43,163 bases of DNA from Candidatus Nomurabacteria bacterium (lineage in GTDB: Bacteria > Patescibacteriota > Saccharimonadia > Saccharimonadales > Saccharimonadaceae). Positions 1,397-41,914 of this stretch are shown piece after piece (the first letter of the stretch is position 1; every line of letters starts with the position of its first letter). The DNA lies in assembly GCA_031262695.1 (NCBI GenBank), contig JAISHF010000005.1:1-43163 (forward strand), read 5' to 3'. A model generated the notes under the pieces. That model was given only the letters and a program-made list of their open reading frames with translations. It did no database searches and was not told the origin of the DNA. A program made the position numbers and the translations under genes.

Positions 1397-2925
1397 TATG
1401 GGGTAGTGGTTTCGGGTTTCGGGAAGAGGATTTCGCCGTTATAGACGGTTTTTTCGGGCTGGAAGATGGCGAGGATTTTTTGCGAGGTCGTTGGCAAGAA
1501 TGGAGCAAGGGCAGAGGCGAGCGTGGCGACACGACTTGACCAATTTTCTAAAAGATTTCGTAATTCTGGTAGGGTGTCGTCGGATTTGGCGAGTGTCCAA
1601 GGTTTGGCGGCGTCAATTTCGGCGTTAATATCGCGAAAATGATTAAATAATTCAGTTAGAGCGTCCGAAAAATCCAGATTTTGCATAAAATGGTGGTATT
1701 TGGCAAGGCTTTTGACAATATTTGGCAAGGAATCGTCTGATTTGTCAATACTCTGCTCGTTTTGCGTGCCGATAAGCCCAGCAAAATACTTGTTGTTCAT
1801 ATTAGCAAGGCGAGAAACGAGATTGCCGAGGGTGTTGGCGAGGTCGTTATAGGCGGCGTCGTATTTAGCCCAAGTGAAGTCGCCGTCGTCGCAGGTCGGG
1901 ATATATTTAAGGAAGTAAAAGCGGAAGGCATCAGTGCCATAGCGGGCGATAACTTCGGTAGGGCTAATCACATTGCCGAGGGACTTGCTCATTTTGGTGC
2001 CGTCAACATTAACAAAGCCGTGCGTCAAAAGCAGGCGAGGTAGCGGCAAGCCAAGCCCGAGCAAGATTGCCGGCCAAGTGATAGCGTGAAAACGCAAAAT
2101 GTCCTTGCCAATAATCTGGGTGCTGGCTGGCCAATGTCCTGTCGTGAGATAGTTGGAAAGTGCATCAATCCAGACATACATGGTTTGGTCGGGGTCGTTG
2201 GGGACGGGAATGCCCCACGAAACCTGTGATTTGGGGCGAGAGATGGAGACGTCTTCGGACTTTTCAAGCAAGTTTAAGATTTCGCTAGCGCGAAAATCAG
2301 GGAGGATTTTGAGGTATTGGTCGTCGCTTGGGTCGGCGGTGCCGACGCTACGTGCGGTAGTTTCGCCATTTAGGGCGTCTAGGGTGCTTAACGCACGACC
2401 GCGTTCAATTGCGGCTTTGATTTGCGGGATAAGAGCGGTGACTTTTAAGAAGTAGTTGTCTTCGGAGATTTCTTGGAGTGGCTGGTTATGGATTGGGCAG
2501 GTGAAGTTTTTTTCGCGGGCCTCGGTTTCGGTGATGAAACTTTCGCAGCCTTCGCAATACCAGCCGTGGTAGGGCTTTTTGTAAATTAGACCGTTTTCAG
2601 CGAGTTTTAGCCAGATTTCTTGGCAGTTTTTGATGTGGTTAGGGTTGGTAGTGCGGATGAAATAGTCATATTTAGCGTCTAAATCTTGCCAAAGAGCGCG
2701 AAAAAGCGCCGAGTTTTCGTCGCAGAGTTCTTGTGGGCTGATGCCTAATGCCTTTGCTTTGCTCGCGACTTTTTGACCGTGTTCGTCGGTGCCAGTTTGC
2801 AAAAAAGTGGTTTCGCCGCGGGATTTTTGGTAGCGATTGAGCACATCAGCCAGCAAAAAGTCCAGCGCGTGACCGACATGGGGGGCGCCGTTTAAGTACG
2901 CAATCGCCGTAGTAATATATTTCAT
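1396..2925 (-). CDS. metG: Methionyl-tRNA synthetase
   Basis: Class I aminoacyl-tRNA synthetase that charges tRNA-Met. The HIGH box appears as HVGH near residue 18 and KMSKS is exact (KMSKSLGN). The Cys cluster of the connective domain (CEGC, CP) is present. The 509-residue form lacks the C-terminal tRNA-binding dimer domain found in longer MetRS. I chose the ATG at 2925 because the protein then begins with the family's usual start (MKYITTAIAYLNG) and TATAAT lies exactly 6 nt upstream, implying a leaderless mRNA. An insert of about 25-30 residues before PDFRASEI is encoded by hairpin-rich DNA (2332-2397). Confidence 0.95.
   Translation of the reverse strand: MKYITTAIAYLNGAPHVGHALDFLLADVLNRYQKSRGETTFLQTGTDEHGQKVASKAKALGISPQELCDENSALFRALWQDLDAKYDYFIRTTNPNHIKNCQEIWLKLAENGLIYKKPYHGWYCEGCESFITETEAREKNFTCPIHNQPLQEISEDNYFLKVTALIPQIKAAIERGRALSTLDALNGETTARSVGTADPSDDQYLKILPDFRASEILNLLEKSEDVSISRPKSQVSWGIPVPNDPDQTMYVWIDALSNYLTTGHWPASTQIIGKDILRFHAITWPAILLGLGLPLPRLLLTHGFVNVDGTKMSKSLGNVISPTEVIARYGTDAFRFYFLKYIPTCDDGDFTWAKYDAAYNDLANTLGNLVSRLANMNNKYFAGLIGTQNEQSIDKSDDSLPNIVKSLAKYHHFMQNLDFSDALTELFNHFRDINAEIDAAKPWTLAKSDDTLPELRNLLENWSSRVATLASALAPFLPTTSQKILAIFQPEKTVYNGEILFPKPETTTP
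2332..2397. repeat. Hairpin-rich in-frame insert in metG
   Basis: A perfect hairpin GTCGGC-GGT-GCCGAC (2332-2346) is followed by a second inverted pair, CGTGCG at 2351-2356 and CGCACG at 2392-2397. The encoded residues fall where typical MetRS goes straight from helix to the PDF motif. Confidence 0.55.
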
Positions 2926-2931
2926 AGGGTC

Positions 2932-2937
2932 ATTATA
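2932..2937 (-). promoter_or_regulatory. -10 box of metG, leaderless start
   Basis: TATAAT on the minus strand with exactly 6 nt before the metG ATG, placing the transcription start on or next to the A of ATG. There is no Shine-Dalgarno. Confidence 0.65.
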
Positions 2938-4159
2938 GCATATTTTTAGCGTAATAGCGAGTGAGATAATCGCGTTTGAATGTTTGGAAGGTGTCATCTA
3001 GGAGCGATTCGCGGATTTGTTTGGTGAGGTTGACGACAAAATACTCATTATGGATGCTGGCGAGGACACCAGCAGTGAGTTCATGGGCGTGAAAGAGATG
3101 GGCGAGGTAGGCTTTGCTGTGGTGCTGGCAGGTATAGCAATTGCATTCGGGATCTATTGGCGAAAAATCATGGCGATATTTGGCGTTTTTGATGTTAATG
3201 CGGCCGTCGCGGGTGTAGAGAGCGCCGTTCCTTGCTTGTCGTGTTGGGGCGACGCAATCAAAAGTGTCGCAGCCGAATTCGGCACCGATAAAGAGGTCAC
3301 GGGGTTCGGCGCCCATACCGAGGAGGTGGCGGGGGCGGCGGCTCGGCAGAATCTGATTGACGAGTTGGAGCATTGTGTCCATACCGTCAGCGGTGAAGAC
3401 GCCGCCGATACCGAATCCGTCAAAAACTTGGCCGCTTACTTCCATTTCGGCTAAGGTTTTGGCGGATTTACGGCGGAGATCCAAGAATTTGCCACCTTGA
3501 ACGACACCAAACAAGGCTTGGTAAGGGGGTATTTTGGGTTGATTTGACAGGGGTGAGGCGGTAAAAACTTGACTTTTAGGCATAAGTGTGATATAATGGG
3601 AGTATAGGGCGGCTTGCTCACGCAGGCAACGCTCCGCCCAGGCGTGGGTTCGTTCCATGGCAATTTGCATATCTTCACGACTATTGGAGGCCGCGAGTTG
3701 GTCAAAGGCCATATGAATATCGGCGCCGATTTGCCACTGGGCTTGCATGGAAGATTCCGGAGTGATAGTGAGTTCGTGGCCGTCAAGATGCGAGCGAAAA
3801 GTAGCGCCGTTGTTGGTGATTTTGACTTCGGGGAGTGAAAAGATTTGGAAGCCGCCGCTATCGGTAAAGGTTGGCTTGGTGTGGCCAGTGAAATTATTCA
3901 GGCCGCTGGCTCTAGCGAGCAAGTCTGTGCCGGGTTGTAAAATGAGATGATAGGTGTTGGCGAGGGCGGCGTCACTGCCTAGTTCGTCTAGTTGCTGCCA
4001 AGTCAGGCCTTTGACATCGCCGAGTGTTGCGGCGGCGACAAAGGCAGGGGTGGGAATATCTCCGTGCGGGGTATGGATTGTGCCGACACGGGCAAGACCG
4101 ACTTGTTTTTCAATCGTAAAAGAAAACTCGGGGCGGTTGGCGTAAGAATTATTGGACAT
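2933..4159 (-). CDS. tgt: tRNA-guanine transglycosylase
   Basis: Exchanges G34 for a queuosine precursor in Asp, Asn, His and Tyr tRNAs. Seen: the nucleophile-region Asp in FTDSGGFQ, the VVQGG loop, the second catalytic Asp in DTFDCVAPTRQARNG, and the zinc site CNCYTC followed by a distal His. It is 408 residues against about 370-380 normally. The excess is one block of about 24 residues (LYSHYITLMPKSQVF and flank) between AERCLREQ and QALFGVVQGG. That block is the translated antisense of a promoter repeat (3569-3597). The start overlaps the end of tyrS by 11 nt. The partner Q-biosynthesis genes are not in the window. Confidence 0.95.
   Translation of the reverse strand: MSNNSYANRPEFSFTIEKQVGLARVGTIHTPHGDIPTPAFVAAATLGDVKGLTWQQLDELGSDAALANTYHLILQPGTDLLARASGLNNFTGHTKPTFTDSGGFQIFSLPEVKITNNGATFRSHLDGHELTITPESSMQAQWQIGADIHMAFDQLAASNSREDMQIAMERTHAWAERCLREQAALYSHYITLMPKSQVFTASPLSNQPKIPPYQALFGVVQGGKFLDLRRKSAKTLAEMEVSGQVFDGFGIGGVFTADGMDTMLQLVNQILPSRRPRHLLGMGAEPRDLFIGAEFGCDTFDCVAPTRQARNGALYTRDGRINIKNAKYRHDFSPIDPECNCYTCQHHSKAYLAHLFHAHELTAGVLASIHNEYFVVNLTKQIRESLLDDTFQTFKRDYLTRYYAKNML
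3563..3606 (+). repeat. Promoter-repeat copy inserted in frame in tgt
   Basis: TTGACT (3569-3574), a 17-nt spacer and TATAAT (3592-3597) lie on the strand opposite tgt. Across about 42 bp the sequence differs at only a few bases from the intergenic copy at 40665-40705, including the spacer (AGGCATAAGTGTGA). It is open in the tgt frame and accounts for the Tgt-specific insert. Confidence 0.85.
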
Positions 4160-5375
4160 TTTCTACCATAATGAAGGTGTTTTTGCCTTTTTTGAGGATG
4201 GAGATGTCGTTGTAGCGGCGTTCAGAGACAGCATTTGCGGCGACAAGGTCCTTGGCTTCGCGGTTGCTGATGCCAAGCGACAGTACTAAGATATCGGCGG
4301 CGGTCATTTGCTGGTCGTGCTGGACGGTGGGGATGTTCTCGGCGAGCCAAGCACGGAGTTCGGGCGGGAGGTCGTCGCTAAACATTTTGCTTTGTCCGAG
4401 CAGAAAATCAGTGGCCTGTTCGGCTAACTTGGCGTTTTCTTCGCCGTGGACGATACGGGTGACCTCATAGGCAAGTTTGCGGCCAGCGAGGCGGGCGGCG
4501 GGATTCGCAGCGTTTTCGGCGAGCAAGGCCTCAATCTCTGGCCTGTCTAGTTCGGTATAGAACTTTAAGAATTGCTCTAGGTTGGCATCAGAAGCGCCGC
4601 GCCAGAACTGGTAAAAATCAAAGATGGAGGTCTTGGCTGGGTTGAGCCAGACGGCATTGCCTTCGCTTTTGCCGAATTTGCGGCCTGAGACTTTGTCAAT
4701 TACAAGCGGGAGCGACCAGACGTAAGCCTTCTCGCCCTCTAATTTGTTGATTAGGTGAACACCACTGACACAGTTGCCGAATTGATCGGCGCCGCAGAGT
4801 TGGAGGTCAATGTTGCGAGTGCGAAAGAGGTGGAGAAAATCATAGCCTTGGATTAGTGAGTAGGAAAACTCGGCGTAGGAGATGCCAGAGCCGCCTGCGC
4901 CGATACGGTCTTTGACGAATTGGCGGTCGAGCAGTTGAGTCATAGAGAATTGCTTGCCGACTTCGCGCAGGAAATCAAGATAATTGACTGATTTGAACCA
5001 GTCAAGGTTGTCAACGAGGGCAAATTGACCGTTGTCAACGGCCTCATCGGTGATGTTGAGGACCTGGCGGAATTGCTGAGCGATAATTTGCTTATTGCGG
5101 GCGACTTCGTCTAGTGGTTTTAACTCACGCTCGGCCGTATCTTTTGGGTCGCCAATTTGGCCAGTGGCACCGCCGACCAGTAGGGTGGCAAGGTAGCCGT
5201 GTTTAACAAAACAGCGACACATCATCAGGGCGGCGAGGTTGCCGACTTGCAGGCTGTCGGCACTAGGATCGGCGCCAAAGTAAAATTTGTGCGGGGCGGT
5301 ATCAAGGTCGGCGGGATTAGCAAAGTTATTCTCGGCATAAAAGCCACGCCACAAAAGTTCTTCTGATAATGTCAT
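4149..5375 (-). CDS. tyrS: Tyrosyl-tRNA synthetase
   Basis: Class I synthetase charging tRNA-Tyr; 408 residues, normal family length, with a C-terminal S4-like RNA-binding domain (ILVLSLGISNREAKDLV..GKNTFIMV). The KMSKS equivalent is KFGKSEGN, and the Tyr-site signatures GGATGQIGDP and SYSLIQGYDFLHLF are intact. The HIGH-equivalent reads QVGN (in PSADSLQVGNL), so the first His is Gln and the second Asn. The start has AAGGAG at good spacing. It lies 18 nt downstream of the surface-protein gene and probably shares its transcript. Confidence 0.96.
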   Translation of the reverse strand: MTLSEELLWRGFYAENNFANPADLDTAPHKFYFGADPSADSLQVGNLAALMMCRCFVKHGYLATLLVGGATGQIGDPKDTAERELKPLDEVARNKQIIAQQFRQVLNITDEAVDNGQFALVDNLDWFKSVNYLDFLREVGKQFSMTQLLDRQFVKDRIGAGGSGISYAEFSYSLIQGYDFLHLFRTRNIDLQLCGADQFGNCVSGVHLINKLEGEKAYVWSLPLVIDKVSGRKFGKSEGNAVWLNPAKTSIFDFYQFWRGASDANLEQFLKFYTELDRPEIEALLAENAANPAARLAGRKLAYEVTRIVHGEENAKLAEQATDFLLGQSKMFSDDLPPELRAWLAENIPTVQHDQQMTAADILVLSLGISNREAKDLVAANAVSERRYNDISILKKGKNTFIMVENVQ

Positions 5376-5393
5376 AAATCTCCTTGTTAAATA

Positions 5394-6362
5394 TTATTCG
5401 GCGGCAAAACGACGGCTTTTGGCGATGCGGGTAGCGACAGCAATGCCGACGAGAATGATGATAGCACCAAGCCCGACAAAGAAGACGGCGACCATCCAAA
5501 CTGGGGCGACGAGGACGAGTTTGGTATGCTCAATAATCTCACCGTTAGGAAAAACTGATTGCTGGGTGACATAATAGAGGCCAAAACGAGGCTCAATGTA
5601 GTTTAGTTCAACGGAAACGGGCTCGGACTGCGGATAGAGGAAGATGTTGGTATCATTGGTGGCTGGGCTGCGATAAACCTCACGCCCAAAGAGCGATTTG
5701 ACGATTAGGGTATTCGCGGAAACGTAATCTGTGTTGCCAGAGTTGCGGATAGAGAGCGAGGTATTGAGACTGCCACCCTTGACCCACTGCGGGATGTCAA
5801 AAGCGACAACTTCGCCGCGTTCAATGGTGTCGCCGCTGACTTGGGCAAAAATGCGGAATTGCAGTTGCTTTTGGGCGACCATGGCGCTAGTGCCGTCGGC
5901 CATGGTTTTGATGTTGATGCCGGCATATTGGGCGCCGGCTGGCGCGCTGGCCGGAGTGTTGATGGCATAGTTGATAATAATCGTCTCGCCTGGGGCGATA
6001 TTGCGGTATTCGCTGCGGTCAACGCTAATCCAGCGGCGGATTTCGGTGAAGGCACCATCGTGCGAGAAGCGCTCGCCAGCATCGGCTGACGGTAAGAATA
6101 GGTCAGGGGTGACTTCAAGTGAGTAGGTAGTGCTGCCGCTGTTCTTGACGCTAAAACTACGGGTAATCTCTTGGCCGGGGGCTAAAATAAGGCGCTCGGC
6201 GGCATTGGGCAGGCAGATGCTGGTGCCCTCAACTAATGGTGTCTCGGCACAGCCGAGAGTGCCACTAGTTGAATCGTCAGCAAAAGCAGTGAGTGGCATA
6301 AGATTGGCGCTCAAAATTGACAAGGCGAGAGCCGCCGTGCCGAAAAAATGTAGTTTCTTCAT
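5394..6362 (-). CDS. Secreted DUF916/WxL-type surface protein with C-terminal membrane anchor
   Basis: 322 residues. The N-terminal signal peptide (MKKLHFFG, hydrophobic core, cleavage near AFADD) leads into two Ig-like beta domains: APGQEITRSFSVKNSGSTTYSLEV and a second NSGNTDYVS block. A single TM helix (VWMVAVFFVGLGAIIILVG) and a short basic tail close the protein. The order and motifs resemble DUF916-family proteins, which bind peptidoglycan or partner surface proteins. It would sit on the outer face of the membrane. GGGGG 4 nt before ATG serves as SD. It is first in the run leading to tyrS and is divergent from gap. Confidence 0.7.
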   Translation of the reverse strand: MKKLHFFGTAALALSILSANLMPLTAFADDSTSGTLGCAETPLVEGTSICLPNAAERLILAPGQEITRSFSVKNSGSTTYSLEVTPDLFLPSADAGERFSHDGAFTEIRRWISVDRSEYRNIAPGETIIINYAINTPASAPAGAQYAGINIKTMADGTSAMVAQKQLQFRIFAQVSGDTIERGEVVAFDIPQWVKGGSLNTSLSIRNSGNTDYVSANTLIVKSLFGREVYRSPATNDTNIFLYPQSEPVSVELNYIEPRFGLYYVTQQSVFPNGEIIEHTKLVLVAPVWMVAVFFVGLGAIIILVGIAVATRIAKSRRFAAE

Positions 6363-6382
6363 AATTCCCCCATATTTATTTT

Positions 6383-6411
6383 ATTATATACGCTTGATTT
6401 AGAAAAATCAA
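6383..6411 (-). promoter_or_regulatory. Promoter of the 5394-6362 surface-protein gene
   Basis: TTGATT, a 17-nt spacer and TATAAT on the minus strand. A perfect inverted repeat CTTGATTT-AGAA-AAATCAAG (6393-6412) covers the -35 and spacer and could be an operator shared with divergent gap. Confidence 0.65.
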
Positions 6412-6414
6412 GAC

Positions 6415-7459
<1,045 letters not shown>

Positions 7460-8559: not shown

Positions 8560-9588
8560 GTGAGTGAATCGGGTGGCAAGATTTCTGGTGATGAGCAGGC
8601 GACTTTGGTGCGGCGGGAGCCGTGGCAGATGAAAATTGTTTGTCTAGGAGCGGCGATGCAGGATGTGTTTTTGCCGAATGCGGCAGTAAAAATGGCGGAT
8701 GGGACGGTGCGGCTGCCGATTAGAAGCGGCGAAAAAATGAATATTCCCGAGGCAGTAGTGACGTTGGGCGGTGGTGCGACGAATGCGGCAGCGACTTTTG
8801 CGAAATGTGGTTATAGCACGCTCTATTGGGGGTCGGTGGGGCTAGATAATGGCTCTGAGTTTGTCGGCGAAGTGCTGATTCGTGAGGGGATAGATATTGC
8901 TTATATGCACTATGATGAAAAAAAGCCGACGGGTTTGTCGGTGATTTTTTTGGACAAAAAAGGCGAGCGGACGATTCTTTCGGCTCGTGGTGCGGGGGCG
9001 GATTTTAATGCGCTGGACGTGGCGATGCTAGAAACTGAGCGGCCGGATTGGTTGTATATGGCGGGTGTGGGGGGTAATTTTCGGAAAATTCGCGAGGTGG
9101 TGGCGGGCTGTGCAGAGGCGAGGACGCAGATTTTTTGGAACCCGAGCGGGGCGGAATTGGCGCAGCCGAATGAGGTGAAGGCGATTTTGCCGAAAGTGAC
9201 GGCGGTGATGCTGAACCGCGAAGAGGCGGAAAAGGTTTGGGGCTCGCGCGAGTATGTGAAGATTTTTCGGGCGAGTTTGTGTCCGCCGATTTTGCTGATT
9301 ACGGACGGTCAGGCGGGGTCGGTGGTGCGGCAGATGTTGCCCTCGGGTAAACAAAAGGTGGTGCGGTCGCAGATTTATGAGGAGCAGGTGGTGGACCGAA
9401 CAGGGGCGGGCGATGCGTTTGGTAGTGGTTTTTTGGCGCATTTTGCCCTGCATAATGATTTGGAGGCGGCGATTAAGTTTGCTAGCGCGAATTCGGCGCG
9501 GGTGGTGCAACATATTGGGGGTCGGGAGGCGGTTTTGGGGTTAAGTGTGCGGCTGGGGGAGCTGCCGATGGTTTCGCGGACAATCTAA
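8560..9588 (+). CDS. PfkB-family carbohydrate kinase
   Basis: Ribokinase-fold kinase that phosphorylates a sugar or nucleoside with ATP. GGGATNAAATFAKCGY is the N-terminal substrate signature and DRTGAGDAFGSGFLAHF is the C-terminal signature with the catalytic Asp. The substrate cannot be read from sequence; ribokinase or a hexose-phosphate kinase fits the neighbours. The GTG at 8560 follows the previous stop directly and has AAGGGG 8 nt upstream. An alternative ATG at 8629 begins at MKIVCLGAAMQDV, the usual PfkB start, so the first 23 residues are uncertain. Confidence 0.85.
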   Translation: MSESGGKISGDEQATLVRREPWQMKIVCLGAAMQDVFLPNAAVKMADGTVRLPIRSGEKMNIPEAVVTLGGGATNAAATFAKCGYSTLYWGSVGLDNGSEFVGEVLIREGIDIAYMHYDEKKPTGLSVIFLDKKGERTILSARGAGADFNALDVAMLETERPDWLYMAGVGGNFRKIREVVAGCAEARTQIFWNPSGAELAQPNEVKAILPKVTAVMLNREEAEKVWGSREYVKIFRASLCPPILLITDGQAGSVVRQMLPSGKQKVVRSQIYEEQVVDRTGAGDAFGSGFLAHFALHNDLEAAIKFASANSARVVQHIGGREAVLGLSVRLGELPMVSRTI

Positions 9589-9605
9589 AGCCCCCTTATG
9601 CTTCC

Positions 9606-9634
9606 ATTATATCACACTTGTGCTTATTTGTCAA
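9606..9634 (-). promoter_or_regulatory. Orphan copy of the promoter repeat, antisense to pfkB
   Basis: TTGACA, a 17-nt spacer and TATAAT on the minus strand with the family spacer (AAGCACAAGTGTGA) and the downstream GGAAGCATAAG. No minus-strand gene follows, so a transcript from it would run antisense into the 3' end of the kinase gene. Confidence 0.7.
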
Positions 9635-9686
9635 GACTTTTTCGGAGCTTTTTTGCAAAACATTTTTATTTTCCGAAAAAGTCTTG
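9632..9686. repeat. 15-bp perfect inverted repeat between pfkB and pgi
   Basis: CAAGACTTTTTCGGA (9632-9646) pairs perfectly with 9672-9686 around a 25-nt T-rich loop. It probably ends plus-strand transcription. Its right arm is also part of the pgi terminator. Confidence 0.75.
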
Positions 9687-15789: not shown

Positions 15790-15999
15790 CTATTCTTCGT
15801 CGTTGGAGCTTATCTGTTTAGAAATGCTCAGAAAGAGACGCAAGAGGTGTGCGGCCGCGCAGACGTAATCCATAACAATACAGGCAATCAGTATGTTGTC
15901 GCCTGTATAGTCATATTTTTCCCACTGGTAGCACGAGAGCAAGAACCAAACCACGGCCAAGAAAAAGCAGTCAAAGTTATTTTGAAAATCTTTTTTCAT
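15790..15999 (-). CDS. Small membrane protein, module 1 gene 1
   Basis: 69 residues: a basic start MKKDFQNNF, one TM helix (CFFLAVVWFLLSCY), a short acidic loop (EKYDYTGDN), a second hydrophobic stretch (ILIACIVMDYVCAAAHLLRLFL) and an acidic tail SNDEE. No family recognised. I chose the ATG at 15999 because AGGAGG stands 6 nt upstream. It is transcribed from the promoter/leader repeat copy at 16089-16128 and ends at the shared hairpin. Its position corresponds to the Spo0A-C gene in module 2, but the proteins are unrelated. Confidence 0.65.
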   Translation of the reverse strand: MKKDFQNNFDCFFLAVVWFLLSCYQWEKYDYTGDNILIACIVMDYVCAAAHLLRLFLSISKQISSNDEE

Positions 16000-16128
16000 A
16001 AGGGGCCTCCTAATATTCACGCCCGTAGATACCTCAAAGAGGTGCTGGGGGGGGGCTTAATTGGTGCCCCACACCAGCTTATACTTACATTATATCATAC
16101 TTGTGCTTAAAAGTCAATAGTTTCGGTG
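16000..16128 (-). promoter_or_regulatory. Promoter/leader repeat, copy A
   Basis: Minus-strand TTGACT (16117-16112), 17 nt, TATAAT (16094-16089), then a leader of about 80 nt with a stem built on GCTGG..CCAGC, a C9 tract (G9 on plus, 16047-16055), a second hairpin ACCTC-TTT-GAGGT, and AGGAGG. CACCGAA lies just upstream of the -35 (16128-16122). Confidence 0.85.
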
Positions 16129-16823: not shown

Positions 16824-17303
16824 TTAGGTGTCGCTATATTGGAGGAATTGTTTTGTGAGGGCAAGGACTTCGTCGGGGAAGGACTTGCAGTCGTCGGGCG
16901 AGGCGGTTGGTTTGACGAAGGCGTCTTTCTTGTTCGTTGAGAAAACGCAGAGTTGGTTTATCTGAATTATTACGACTAAAAAATACATGACTGCGACAGT
17001 AAGGTCGTGCTCATAGACGGCTTTCAAGGCGCCGAAAAGGAAAGCAGTGGCAGTTATGGTAATTAGAACGGCCAGAGTGATGACAAGAGCTTTATTTAGC
17101 TTTTTCCCCTCCGCGCGCTCCCAGCAGAGCGCCTCGCATTCTTCTTGAAGCTTGACACTTGGGAATGCTTGTATAAAGTTGAAGGCATTGAAGATTGCGG
17201 TGTTTGTGGCGTTGGAGCCGTATTTTCTAAGAAGTTCCGCATAAACGGTGGTGTTAAGCTCGAAGTCTATATCAGTTTGTTTGCCGTTTATTGTAAGGGT
17301 CAT
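16824..17303 (-). CDS. Membrane protein with soluble N-domain, module 1 gene 2
   Basis: 159 residues. The N-terminal part (LTINGKQTDIDFELNTTVYAELLRKYG) looks like a small beta/alpha domain of the kind seen in phage tail-assembly chaperones, but the match is weak. Two TM helices follow (ALVITLAVLITITATAFLFGAL and LTVAVMYFLVVIIQINQLCVF), then a cytoplasmic tail. I chose the ATG at 17303 because AGGTG lies 6 nt upstream. Expressed from promoter/leader copy B. In module 2 the corresponding slot holds another small membrane protein. It could be the protective partner of the nuclease, which is speculation from position only. Confidence 0.6.
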   Translation of the reverse strand: MTLTINGKQTDIDFELNTTVYAELLRKYGSNATNTAIFNAFNFIQAFPSVKLQEECEALCWERAEGKKLNKALVITLAVLITITATAFLFGALKAVYEHDLTVAVMYFLVVIIQINQLCVFSTNKKDAFVKPTASPDDCKSFPDEVLALTKQFLQYSDT

Positions 17304-17439
17304 AGTATTCACCTATCTTTCAAAATTCACGCCCACTAGATACCTCAAAGAGGTGCTGGGGGGGGGCTTATTAGTTGCCCCACACCAGCTTATACTTACA
17401 TTATATCATACCATAAGCAAAAAGTCAATAGTTTTGGCA
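17304..17439 (-). promoter_or_regulatory. Promoter/leader repeat, copy B
   Basis: TTGACT (17428-17423), 17 nt, TATAAT (17405-17400), the conserved leader with GCTGG/CCAGC stem, C9 tract (17366-17358) and ACCTC-TTT-GAGGT hairpin, then AGGTG. TGCCAAA stands at 17439-17433, 4 nt upstream of the -35. Confidence 0.88.
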
Positions 17440-26904: not shown

Positions 26905-27048
26905 TGCCAAAACTATTGACTTTTAAGCACAAGTGTGATATAATGGAGATGTTATGGAGGTAATAACCGCCATACGAACCAATAACAGTTAGTTAAAACC
27001 CAGTTTAGGGTAATTTTTGCTGCCCAAAAGGGCGAAAAGGAGATTCTT
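26905..27048 (+). promoter_or_regulatory. Promoter repeat copy E with a different leader
   Basis: TGCCAAA (26905-26911), TTGACT (26916-26921), 17-nt spacer and TATAAT (26939-26944) match copies B-D almost base for base. The 100-nt leader is unrelated to theirs. It has a five-codon ORF (ATG at 26950), an AACCC..GGGTAA element, a GCCC-AAAA-GGGC hairpin, and AAGGAG before the ATG at 27049. Confidence 0.8.
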
Positions 27049-38593: not shown

Positions 38594-39019
38594 TTATTGT
38601 TTTTTGGGCGTTTCGGCGAGCTTTTGGGCGAGGTTTTTATGGGAGAAGATGATTGCAAAAATAACGCCGCAAAGCACAATCGCAAAGAGGAGGATACTGG
38701 CGACGACGACTAAGGTGATGATAGTGTTGGTTTTTTGGTCGGTTTTGGCATAATATTCCACAAATTGGGCTTCTAGCGCCTCGGGGGCGGTTTTGGATTT
38801 TTGCTCGGCAAGATCGGTTTCTACCTTGTCTAGGCGTTCAACTAGACCGCTGATTTGATTTTCACGGGTAGTGGTTTTTTGCTCTAAGGTGGTAATTTGG
38901 TTAGAAACTCGGCTGAGAGTGCGACTTTGATTGAAAATGAAAATGCCACCGATTAGCAGCACGACAAAAGCCGCGGCAACAGCGACGAGGTGTAGAAATT
39001 TTGGCGTGGGCTTGTCCAT
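38594..39019 (-). CDS. Two-helix membrane protein with extracytoplasmic coiled coil
   Basis: 141 residues. The first TM helix is at residues 9-30 (LHLVAVAAAFVVLLIGGIFIF), then a coiled coil of about 45 residues (SRVSNQITTLEQ..LVERLDKVETDLAEQ), a second TM (TIITLVVVASILLFAIVLCGVIFAI) and a basic cytoplasmic tail. No family recognised. It splits rplA from rplJ, which are usually adjacent. Leaderless: TATAAT is 6 nt before ATG. Confidence 0.65.
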   Translation of the reverse strand: MDKPTPKFLHLVAVAAAFVVLLIGGIFIFNQSRTLSRVSNQITTLEQKTTTRENQISGLVERLDKVETDLAEQKSKTAPEALEAQFVEYYAKTDQKTNTIITLVVVASILLFAIVLCGVIFAIIFSHKNLAQKLAETPKKQ

Positions 39020-39025
39020 ACTTAC

Positions 39026-39054
39026 ATTATATCACACTCGGTGCAAAAAGTCAA
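39026..39054 (-). promoter_or_regulatory. Promoter of the 38594-39019 gene, leaderless
   Basis: TTGACT, 17-nt spacer ending GAGTGTGA, TATAAT on minus; 6 nt to ATG. The core matches the promoter repeat family but has no module-type leader. Confidence 0.75.
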
Positions 39055-40113: not shown

Positions 40114-40563
40114 TTAGGCGGATTTTGTCGCGGGCTGGATATATTTATGCTCCATCTGGATTTTATCGGCAATTGTGGCAATAAACTCGCTGTTGGTCGG
40201 TTTGTCCTTCTCAAATGAGATGGTGTAGCCGAAGACATCTTCCCAGAATGCGTGGCTGCCGCGTACATAGGACACCTCTACGGCGTGGCGAATGGCGCGC
40301 TCAACACGGCTCCCCGTGGTCTTGAACTCATTCGCGATGGTGGGATAAAGTTTTTTCGTGATTGAGTCCAATATCTCGTCGTCTTCAACGGCAAGAACGA
40401 TAGCTCGGCGAGCATAGCGGTAACCCTTAATGTGTGCAGGAATGCCGAGTTCACGGAAAATTTCGCCTACGCGGAGTTCAGTTGTCGGGTCGGGGTTCAC
40501 GGATTCAACAGTGAAGTTTGTAGTAGCGACCGCTGTAATGGTTTCAGTAGTTTTCTCAGACAT
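40114..40563 (-). CDS. Stand-alone Spo0A C-terminal DNA-binding domain protein
   Basis: 149 residues. Residues 32-140 align end to end with the Spo0A effector domain: ELGIPAHIKGYRYARRAI, DSITKKLYPTIANEF, the recognition-helix block TTGSRVERAIRHAVEV, then FGYTISF and KPTNSEFIATIADKIQMEHK. By eye roughly half the positions are identical to Bacillus subtilis Spo0A. The receiver domain is replaced by a 30-residue Thr-rich tail, so control by phosphorylation in cis is impossible. AGGAGG stands 8 nt before ATG. It is transcribed from promoter/leader copy C, which has a Spo0A-box-like TGCCGAA. No sporulation genes are in the window. Transfer from a Firmicute is plausible. Confidence 0.93.
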   Translation of the reverse strand: MSEKTTETITAVATTNFTVESVNPDPTTELRVGEIFRELGIPAHIKGYRYARRAIVLAVEDDEILDSITKKLYPTIANEFKTTGSRVERAIRHAVEVSYVRGSHAFWEDVFGYTISFEKDKPTNSEFIATIADKIQMEHKYIQPATKSA

Positions 40564-40711
40564 AAGTGGTTCCTCCTAAAAAATTTACGCACCCTGTTTA
40601 CCAAGTTCCCGATGCACAAGCAAAGGGGCTGGGGGGGGGTGATTATTTGCCCACACCCAGCTTATACTTCCATTATATCACACTTATGCCTAAAAGTCAA
40701 TAGTTTCGGCA
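40564..40711 (-). promoter_or_regulatory. Promoter/leader repeat, copy C
   Basis: TGCCGAA (40711-40705), TTGACT (40700-40695), 17-nt spacer, TATAAT (40677-40672), then a leader with CTGGGTGTGGG / C9-CCAG stem (C9 at 40639-40631). The ACCTC/GAGGT hairpin is missing. Ends in AGGAGG. Confidence 0.88.
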
Positions 40712-41327: not shown

Positions 41328-41771
41328 TTAAACCTCATAAGAAAGTATTTTTGAGTGCTTGATTTGGCCAGCTTTATTGTAGTAGACTCTCACGATAATG
41401 TTCAGGCTCTCACCTTCAGATGATTTAGTATAGAGTTCAGCGTTATCTATCCAGTAGATTGCACCATCATCTTTGGCTTCAACTTGAACGTTGTGTTGCG
41501 ACGGATGAATTATCGGCAAAAGGGTAGTCACGTTACCGATGCGTGTGGGCATTAAGGTTGTGTAGCTAGGCCGATAGCTTTTGCTGCGGATGTATGCTTG
41601 TTTTTTGACGTCTTTGTGCCGGTAGGCAAGCGCGCGGTACAATGCTTGGATTGGCATAGCGAGCAGAATGCCGACGAGTATCAGCAACAAGACGATACAG
41701 GCGAGTGTGATAACGCCAACGACACCCGCAAGGATACCGCTGTGAAAGAACATCTCGAAGAACCATGACAT
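41328..41771 (-). CDS. Membrane-anchored protein, module 2 gene 2
   Basis: 147 residues. One or two N-terminal TM segments (FFHSGILAGVVGVITLACIVLLLILVGILLAM) are followed by a basic linker (YRHKDVKKQAYIRSKSY) and a small beta-rich soluble domain (VQVEAKDDGAIYWIDNAELYT..LNIIVRVYYNKAGQIKHSKILSY). No family recognised. AAAGGAGG is 8 nt before ATG. Expressed from promoter/leader copy D. It sits in the same slot as 16824-17303 of module 1, but the two proteins show no clear similarity. Confidence 0.62.
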   Translation of the reverse strand: MSWFFEMFFHSGILAGVVGVITLACIVLLLILVGILLAMPIQALYRALAYRHKDVKKQAYIRSKSYRPSYTTLMPTRIGNVTTLLPIIHPSQHNVQVEAKDDGAIYWIDNAELYTKSSEGESLNIIVRVYYNKAGQIKHSKILSYEV

Positions 41772-41914
41772 AGTGAAATCCTCCTTTTATAAAAAGTGCA
41801 CGCCCACTTGCATAATTACCTCGTAGAGGTGCTGGGGGGGGGTGATTATTTGTCCACACCCAGCTTATATTTCCATTATATCACACTCGTGCTTAAAAGT
41901 CAATAGTTTTGGCA
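41772..41914 (-). promoter_or_regulatory. Promoter/leader repeat, copy D
   Basis: TGCCAAA (41914-41908), TTGACT (41903-41898), 17-nt spacer, TATAAT (41880-41875), a leader with GCTGGG/CCCAGC stem, C9 tract (41842-41834), ACCTC-TAC-GAGGT hairpin, GTGGGCGTG box shared with copies A and B, and AAAGGAGG. Confidence 0.88.

Follow-up and report, generated by a model that had tools for sequence, protein, structure and literature searches.

A dispersed promoter repeat lies in frame and antisense within the tgt gene of a Saccharibacteria genome

Results

A copy of the promoter repeat lies in frame within tgt

We observed that the tRNA guanosine(34) transglycosylase gene (tgt) of a Saccharibacteria genome contains, in frame and in antisense, a near-identical copy of a short promoter repeat that is dispersed through the same genome and absent from tgt in its relatives. 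The block is very probably a lineage-specific insertion of that repeat, kept because it preserves the reading frame and sits in a tolerant loop, with the residues that it encodes being a tolerated by-product.

The stretch of DNA analyzed (the window; 43,163 nt) is contig C2 of a 652-kb genome assembled in five contigs and 97.5% complete (G000). The contig starts with a perfect tandem array of a 9-nt unit, AACCAACTG (positions 1-118). tgt occupies 2933-4159 on the minus strand, stop codon included, as an open frame of 408 amino acids. It is flanked by a metG-like gene, so named from a reading of its translation, and by tyrS, which also adjoins tgt in two genomes of the same genus (G001 and G003). 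The product scored as Q_tRNA_tgt (TIGR00430) in a profile search (384 bits; cut-off, 307). D100, D301, C339, C341, C344 and H370, which we take to be the active-site and zinc positions after work on the Zymomonas enzyme, were invariant in an alignment of 23 of the 82 Tgt rows. Relative to G003, tgt was constrained (dN 0.203, dS 1.91; 630 aligned bases), and purifying selection acts on the gene.

The repeat copy matched at 3563-3606 on the plus strand, antisense to tgt, and codes for approximately residues 185-199. A promoter-motif scan placed a −35-like hexamer, TTGACT, at 3569-3574 and a −10-like hexamer, TATAAT, at 3592-3597, with a 17-nt spacer, an upstream TG (extended −10) and a G following. 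The initial annotation had placed a consensus plus-strand promoter inside this minus-strand gene, and the predicted sigma-70-type promoter at 3569-3598 (+) was indeed the strongest promoter-like site within 2900-6700 (11 of 12 positions, TG-extended). Its 30-mer has an identical twin at 40671-40700 on the minus strand, and identity between 3569-3606 and 40663-40700 was 97% over 38 nt. At three or fewer mismatches, the 30-mer had 31 copies in G000, compared to none for the reversed control, and chance was rejected as the origin of the match. The frame is open across the copy. An in-frame copy of the promoter repeat, as originally described, is thus borne out. A 102-nt query (3525-3626) gave 42 matches in G000 at E ≤ 10, itself included; the best non-self match, C3:14063-14109, was 91% identical over 47 nt and corresponds to window positions 3563-3609. 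The tgt stretch beside the insert (3427-3496) matched only itself when used as a search query.

Repeat copies mostly precede same-strand genes

With the commoner spacer as query, we found 33 copies in G000 and 9, 7 and 9 copies in G001, G002 and G003 of the same genus. At two or fewer mismatches, 6 of 61 family genomes had copies: 29 in G000, 8 in G001 and one or two in each of the four others. The promoter class is therefore mainly genus-level and most abundant in G000. Aligned G000 copies carried ~2 bits per column across most of the core, much of the spacer included, and outside roughly −16 to +36 their likeness was no higher than background. Some copies shared up to ~100 nt, past the promoter core. 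G000 contained 84 consensus promoters of the form TTGACN16-20TATAAT (control, 1), of which ~32 by hand count had the spacer of the repeat.

We placed 33 copies (30 loci plus another three in the window) relative to neighboring genes by simple frame picking rather than with a gene finder. A same-strand gene started within 300 nt downstream in 24 of these, and an opposite-strand gene came next in 6. The remaining three were scored inside a frame, tgt being the only long, conserved one; the other two lie over opposite-strand frames of 73 and 84 amino acids, which we regard as spurious. In G001 and G003 together, 16 of 18 copies preceded a same-strand gene and none was scored as facing an opposite-strand gene; the two "inside" copies are near the start end of what are probably over-extended frames. 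Because most copies stand ahead of same-strand genes, the repeat looks like a promoter, though some G000 copies are at places without evident promoter use. The genes downstream were unrelated, as judged by reading their translations and not by an all-against-all comparison. A search for orthologous promoter copies between G000 and G001 or G003 gave one weak downstream pair (30% over 92 amino acids).

Within the window, the closest core copy, with the exact 30-mer (40663-40700, minus), holds the promoter position of a same-strand gene that starts ~107 nt downstream. The copy at 26916-26945 (plus) is also ahead of a same-strand gene. Further copies lie on the minus strand at 16088-16117 and 41866-41903, with divergent ones at 39018-39054 and 9588-9640. 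Homology of the last to tgt 3563-3615 extends through the leader, and the copy faces the 3′ end of an opposite-strand, kinase-like gene (8560-9588). Copies between convergent genes that face the 3′ end of the neighbor were likewise seen at loci L037, L045 and L058; the copies in L045 and L058 are immediately followed by a hairpin-like sequence.

A related promoter at 17400-17428 (minus) has a different spacer centre, GCTTATG, which also occurs in consensus promoters at C1:9639, C1:16894, C1:154234 and C5:81256 of G000. This word is approximately the reverse complement of GCATAAG in the main repeat, and the pair is perhaps a regulator site usable in either orientation. Four leaders on the minus strand (15980-16089, 17291-17400, 40563-40672 and 41766-41875) share a conserved 5′ untranslated stretch in which a C9 run pairs with a G-rich segment, followed by a short second hairpin. 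These four leaders had no Rfam match, and their folding z ranged from −2.0 to +0.7. A similar C9 leader is present in G001 (L116).

The insert is specific to one lineage and lies in a predicted loop

The segment from RTHAWAERCL to ALFGVVQGG is 54 residues long in the window Tgt and 34 in G003, a net insert of 20 residues or 60 nt. Alignment to G003 tgt set outer bounds of 3545-3615, within which the exact ends are ambiguous; neither a target-site duplication nor a precise end could be defined. The initial annotation equated a Tgt-specific block of about 24 residues with a translation of the repeat. Its antisense origin in the repeat held, but the repeat supplies only ~15 of the ~20 net extra residues. 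The other 5-6, on the upstream side of the promoter, match no other copy, so the insert consists of more than a clean copy of the repeat. On the leader side, the minus strand of tgt reads AAGCCGCCC, ending at 3615, and the leaders of other copies read AAGCCCCC; this likeness prevents the leader-side end from being fixed. The same likeness may be micro-homology used during insertion.

The promoter repeat was found in tgt in 0 of the 81 other Tgt rows, the next best having 11 mismatches over 30 positions. G000 and G003 pair on the Tgt tree with support of 100/97. Within the genus, the empty site comes from one close relative, G003 (71% complete); the G001 loop holds a different insert of its own, and G002 gave no Tgt match. 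The block is absent from its sister G003 and from all 81 other rows and is near-identical to a dispersed repeat, which indicates that this lineage acquired it as DNA. This agrees with the earlier proposal that the repeat has moved as DNA: the block is shared by no relative and does match intergenic repeats. The comparison of relatives that had been suggested gave a clear presence/absence pattern but not perfectly clean boundaries, with extra unmatched sequence on one side and the leader likeness on the other. An ancestral block lost in every other lineage was considered and rejected. With one of 33 copies in a long gene, the evidence for movement rests on a single alignable empty site, and some of the intergenic copies could instead be promoters kept alike by selection.

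An AlphaFold2 model of the window Tgt, built from the 23-row alignment, had a mean pLDDT of 86. It showed a helix at 161-192, a loop at 196-208 with pLDDT below 50 and a strand at 215-220. In a TIM barrel, helix-to-strand loops are on the side remote from the active site. The model thus places the insert in the loop that follows an alpha helix and leads into the next beta strand of the barrel, on the face predicted to be opposite the active site. At this position the loop is short in 4e2v, the best PDB match (E 2.8e-86). The insert stretch (3525-3626) folded no better than shuffled sequences (z +0.14) and is not palindromic.

The same loop has received hairpin inserts in other Saccharibacteria

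We built a Tgt tree without the loop from 80 of the 82 rows, omitting L112 and L088, which duplicate L002 and L005. A loop insert was assigned to 18 of these 80 distinct rows, or 17 of 79 besides the window, where most inserts were long hairpins. By our own classification, these are the window insert, a small hairpin in G001 and families A (8), B (5), C (2) and D (1). Explaining where inserts are present or absent took 11 changes on the tree, of which well-supported branches force at least 9, so gain and loss at the loop have been recurrent; considered by itself, family A needed 7 changes and family B 5. The tested family inserts folded as strong hairpins, with z of −6.5 (L068), −8.9 (L084), −4.5 (L096), −5.6 (L073) and −5.0 (L064); z was −4.35 for the small hairpin of G001.

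Two inserts, L084 and L068, served as whole-genome queries, which covered families A and B. The family B query had 19, 4, 6, 7 and 4 matches in five B-insert genomes and none in three genomes without the insert. For family A, there were 12, 3, 10, 5, 2, 8 and 10 matches in seven A/C-insert genomes and none in three without. Families A and B are dispersed repeats. Among the A and B loci counted (60 of the 90 matches), 29 of 30 B loci and 15 of 30 A loci fell within open frames 200 or more amino acids long and were read through in frame. Two sites in QueA were clear in-frame hairpin insertions.

QueA, encoded just upstream of tgt in these genomes, showed recurrent in-frame hairpin insertion at two sites, one following RGKxHxGD and the other following IPDDTxxAI (L096:5158-5237 and 5637-5731; L073:1325-1384 and 1786-1884; L084:5094-5162 and 5635-5721). 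More generally, ruminant-gut Saccharibacteria (L063-L096 for the tgt loops; L129-L188) carried several families of long, GC-rich hairpins that are read in frame as part of Tgt, QueA and other proteins. The outer arms of these hairpins varied by genome, with complementarity kept.

Because the loop has also taken up hairpin elements in other lineages, the common factor appears to be the tolerance of the loop and not the element. The tgt DNA at the loop may be a preferred target.

Discussion

Our data suggest that a promoter repeat, consisting of the promoter with its spacer and a short leader, spreads in this genome by being copied as DNA. An ectopic copy would have entered the Tgt loop by template switching or by short single-strand annealing at micro-homology. 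It would have been retained because its net length is divisible by three, its orientation and frame are free of stops, and the loop probably tolerates insertion. On this view, the enzyme tolerates the added residues, which would be a by-product of the insertion. Pointing against the operon, the promoter could also give rise to a non-coding antisense RNA, an outcome that we think incidental. Searches for the Y1 transposase PF01797, the one transposase family covered, gave no match in G000 and found it in 2 of 18 genomes. For this reason we infer ectopic copying over transposition, and RAYT-driven movement is unlikely for most of these genomes.

A dedicated mobile element of the MITE or REP-like kind, moved by a transposase acting in trans, would account for copies dispersed on both strands, and hairpin repeats of relatives do occupy the same loop. 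The window insert, however, has no hairpin (z 0.14), and given the distribution of the Y1 transposase (absent from G000, present in 2 of 18 genomes) we consider such an element improbable. Ordinary growth of a variable loop by small indels, with the promoter likeness arising by convergence, draws on the range of 29 to 74 residues in the RTH..QGG segment among the 82 rows. It does not explain an exact 30-base match with matching flanks, none in the control and at least 11 of 30 mismatches in other rows; we give it practically no credence, and the exact match to a second copy in the genome refutes de novo convergence. The assembly is a five-contig draft, and multi-copy repeats are the usual source of false joins, so a read-joining error could in principle have put the promoter copy into tgt. 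A repeat-based false join swaps flanks, but here both flanks are tgt within one open frame, and tyrS adjoins as in G001 and G003. We regard an artefact as highly improbable.

The promoter might instead have been retained as an antisense switch, its RNA or polymerase collision tuning tgt and tyrS and perhaps coordinating them with queA. The product of queA follows Tgt in the queuosine pathway, and the closest copy over 47 nt (C3:14063-14109) is the predicted promoter of queA, a gene named by reading its translation. queA lies near tgt in many relatives; in the window, G001 and G003, tyrS is there instead. The strength of the predicted TG-extended promoter, unmatched in its region, also fits a switch, as does the contrast between 6 of 33 G000 copies facing opposite-strand genes and none scored among 18 in G001 and G003. 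First rank of the queA copy among ~40 short copies in the genome is nevertheless a weak signal and may be due to chance. Moreover, none of the 81 other rows has an antisense promoter copy in tgt, and downstream plus-strand terminator-like sites were at chance level, so that no defined antisense RNA can be drawn. On balance, a selected switch seems unlikely. A broader possibility, which we think quite unlikely, is that the Saccharibacteria Tgt loop is a standing entry site that turns unrelated dispersed repeats (mostly hairpins; here a working promoter) into protein, with the present entrant firing antisense and coupling tgt to the queA promoter class. We favor a tolerated insertion of the promoter repeat without a selected function.

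Promoter copying is usually inferred from intergenic sequence with flanks that are hard to align. A copy within a conserved gene provides an alignable empty site, and other explanations than the transfer of a bare promoter as DNA then become hard to uphold. Here a regulatory repeat has been turned into protein. Within a single phylum, one loop has accepted repeats of several kinds, a natural experiment on the origin of new protein segments from non-coding repeats.

Mobile promoters, or promoter propagation, were reportedly described by Matus-Garcia et al. in 2012 and van Passel et al. in 2014, as cited in PMC8049555. The present repeat resembles mobile promoters in that one genome has 31-33 near-identical short promoters, most of them (24 of 33) before same-strand genes that appear unrelated. 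Likeness is confined mostly to the promoter, the flanks are mostly unshared, and the repeat has no gene of its own. It differs in that one copy is antisense and in frame in a conserved enzyme gene, where it codes for part of the protein. We found no report of mobile promoters or palindromic elements in Saccharibacteria in a literature search of open-licence papers.

As described in PMC10969869 and PMC3733652, Rickettsia palindromic elements and the protein-coding palindromes of Wolbachia offer a second parallel. Like the Rickettsia elements, the window repeat is a dispersed repeat in frame at a tolerant site in the gene of a working protein. Unlike them, it is non-palindromic (z 0.14) and otherwise intergenic, and compared to their many in-gene copies only 1 of 33 sits well within a long gene. 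The hairpin repeats in the Tgt loop of ruminant-gut Saccharibacteria fit these elements much better than the window repeat does. Correia elements and other promoter-bearing MITEs, as outlined in PMC10969869, share with the window repeat a dispersed repeat bearing a sigma-70-like promoter. In contrast to Correia elements as described there, the window repeat is ~45-50 nt and mostly promoter, has no terminal inverted repeats (no hairpin in 3525-3626 beyond shuffled sequences) and came with no target duplication that we could find. It is also unlike REP sequences with a Y1 (RAYT) transposase, since PF01797 was unmatched in G000. Judged from its sequence, the window insert most resembles a mobile-promoter-like variant that landed in a gene.
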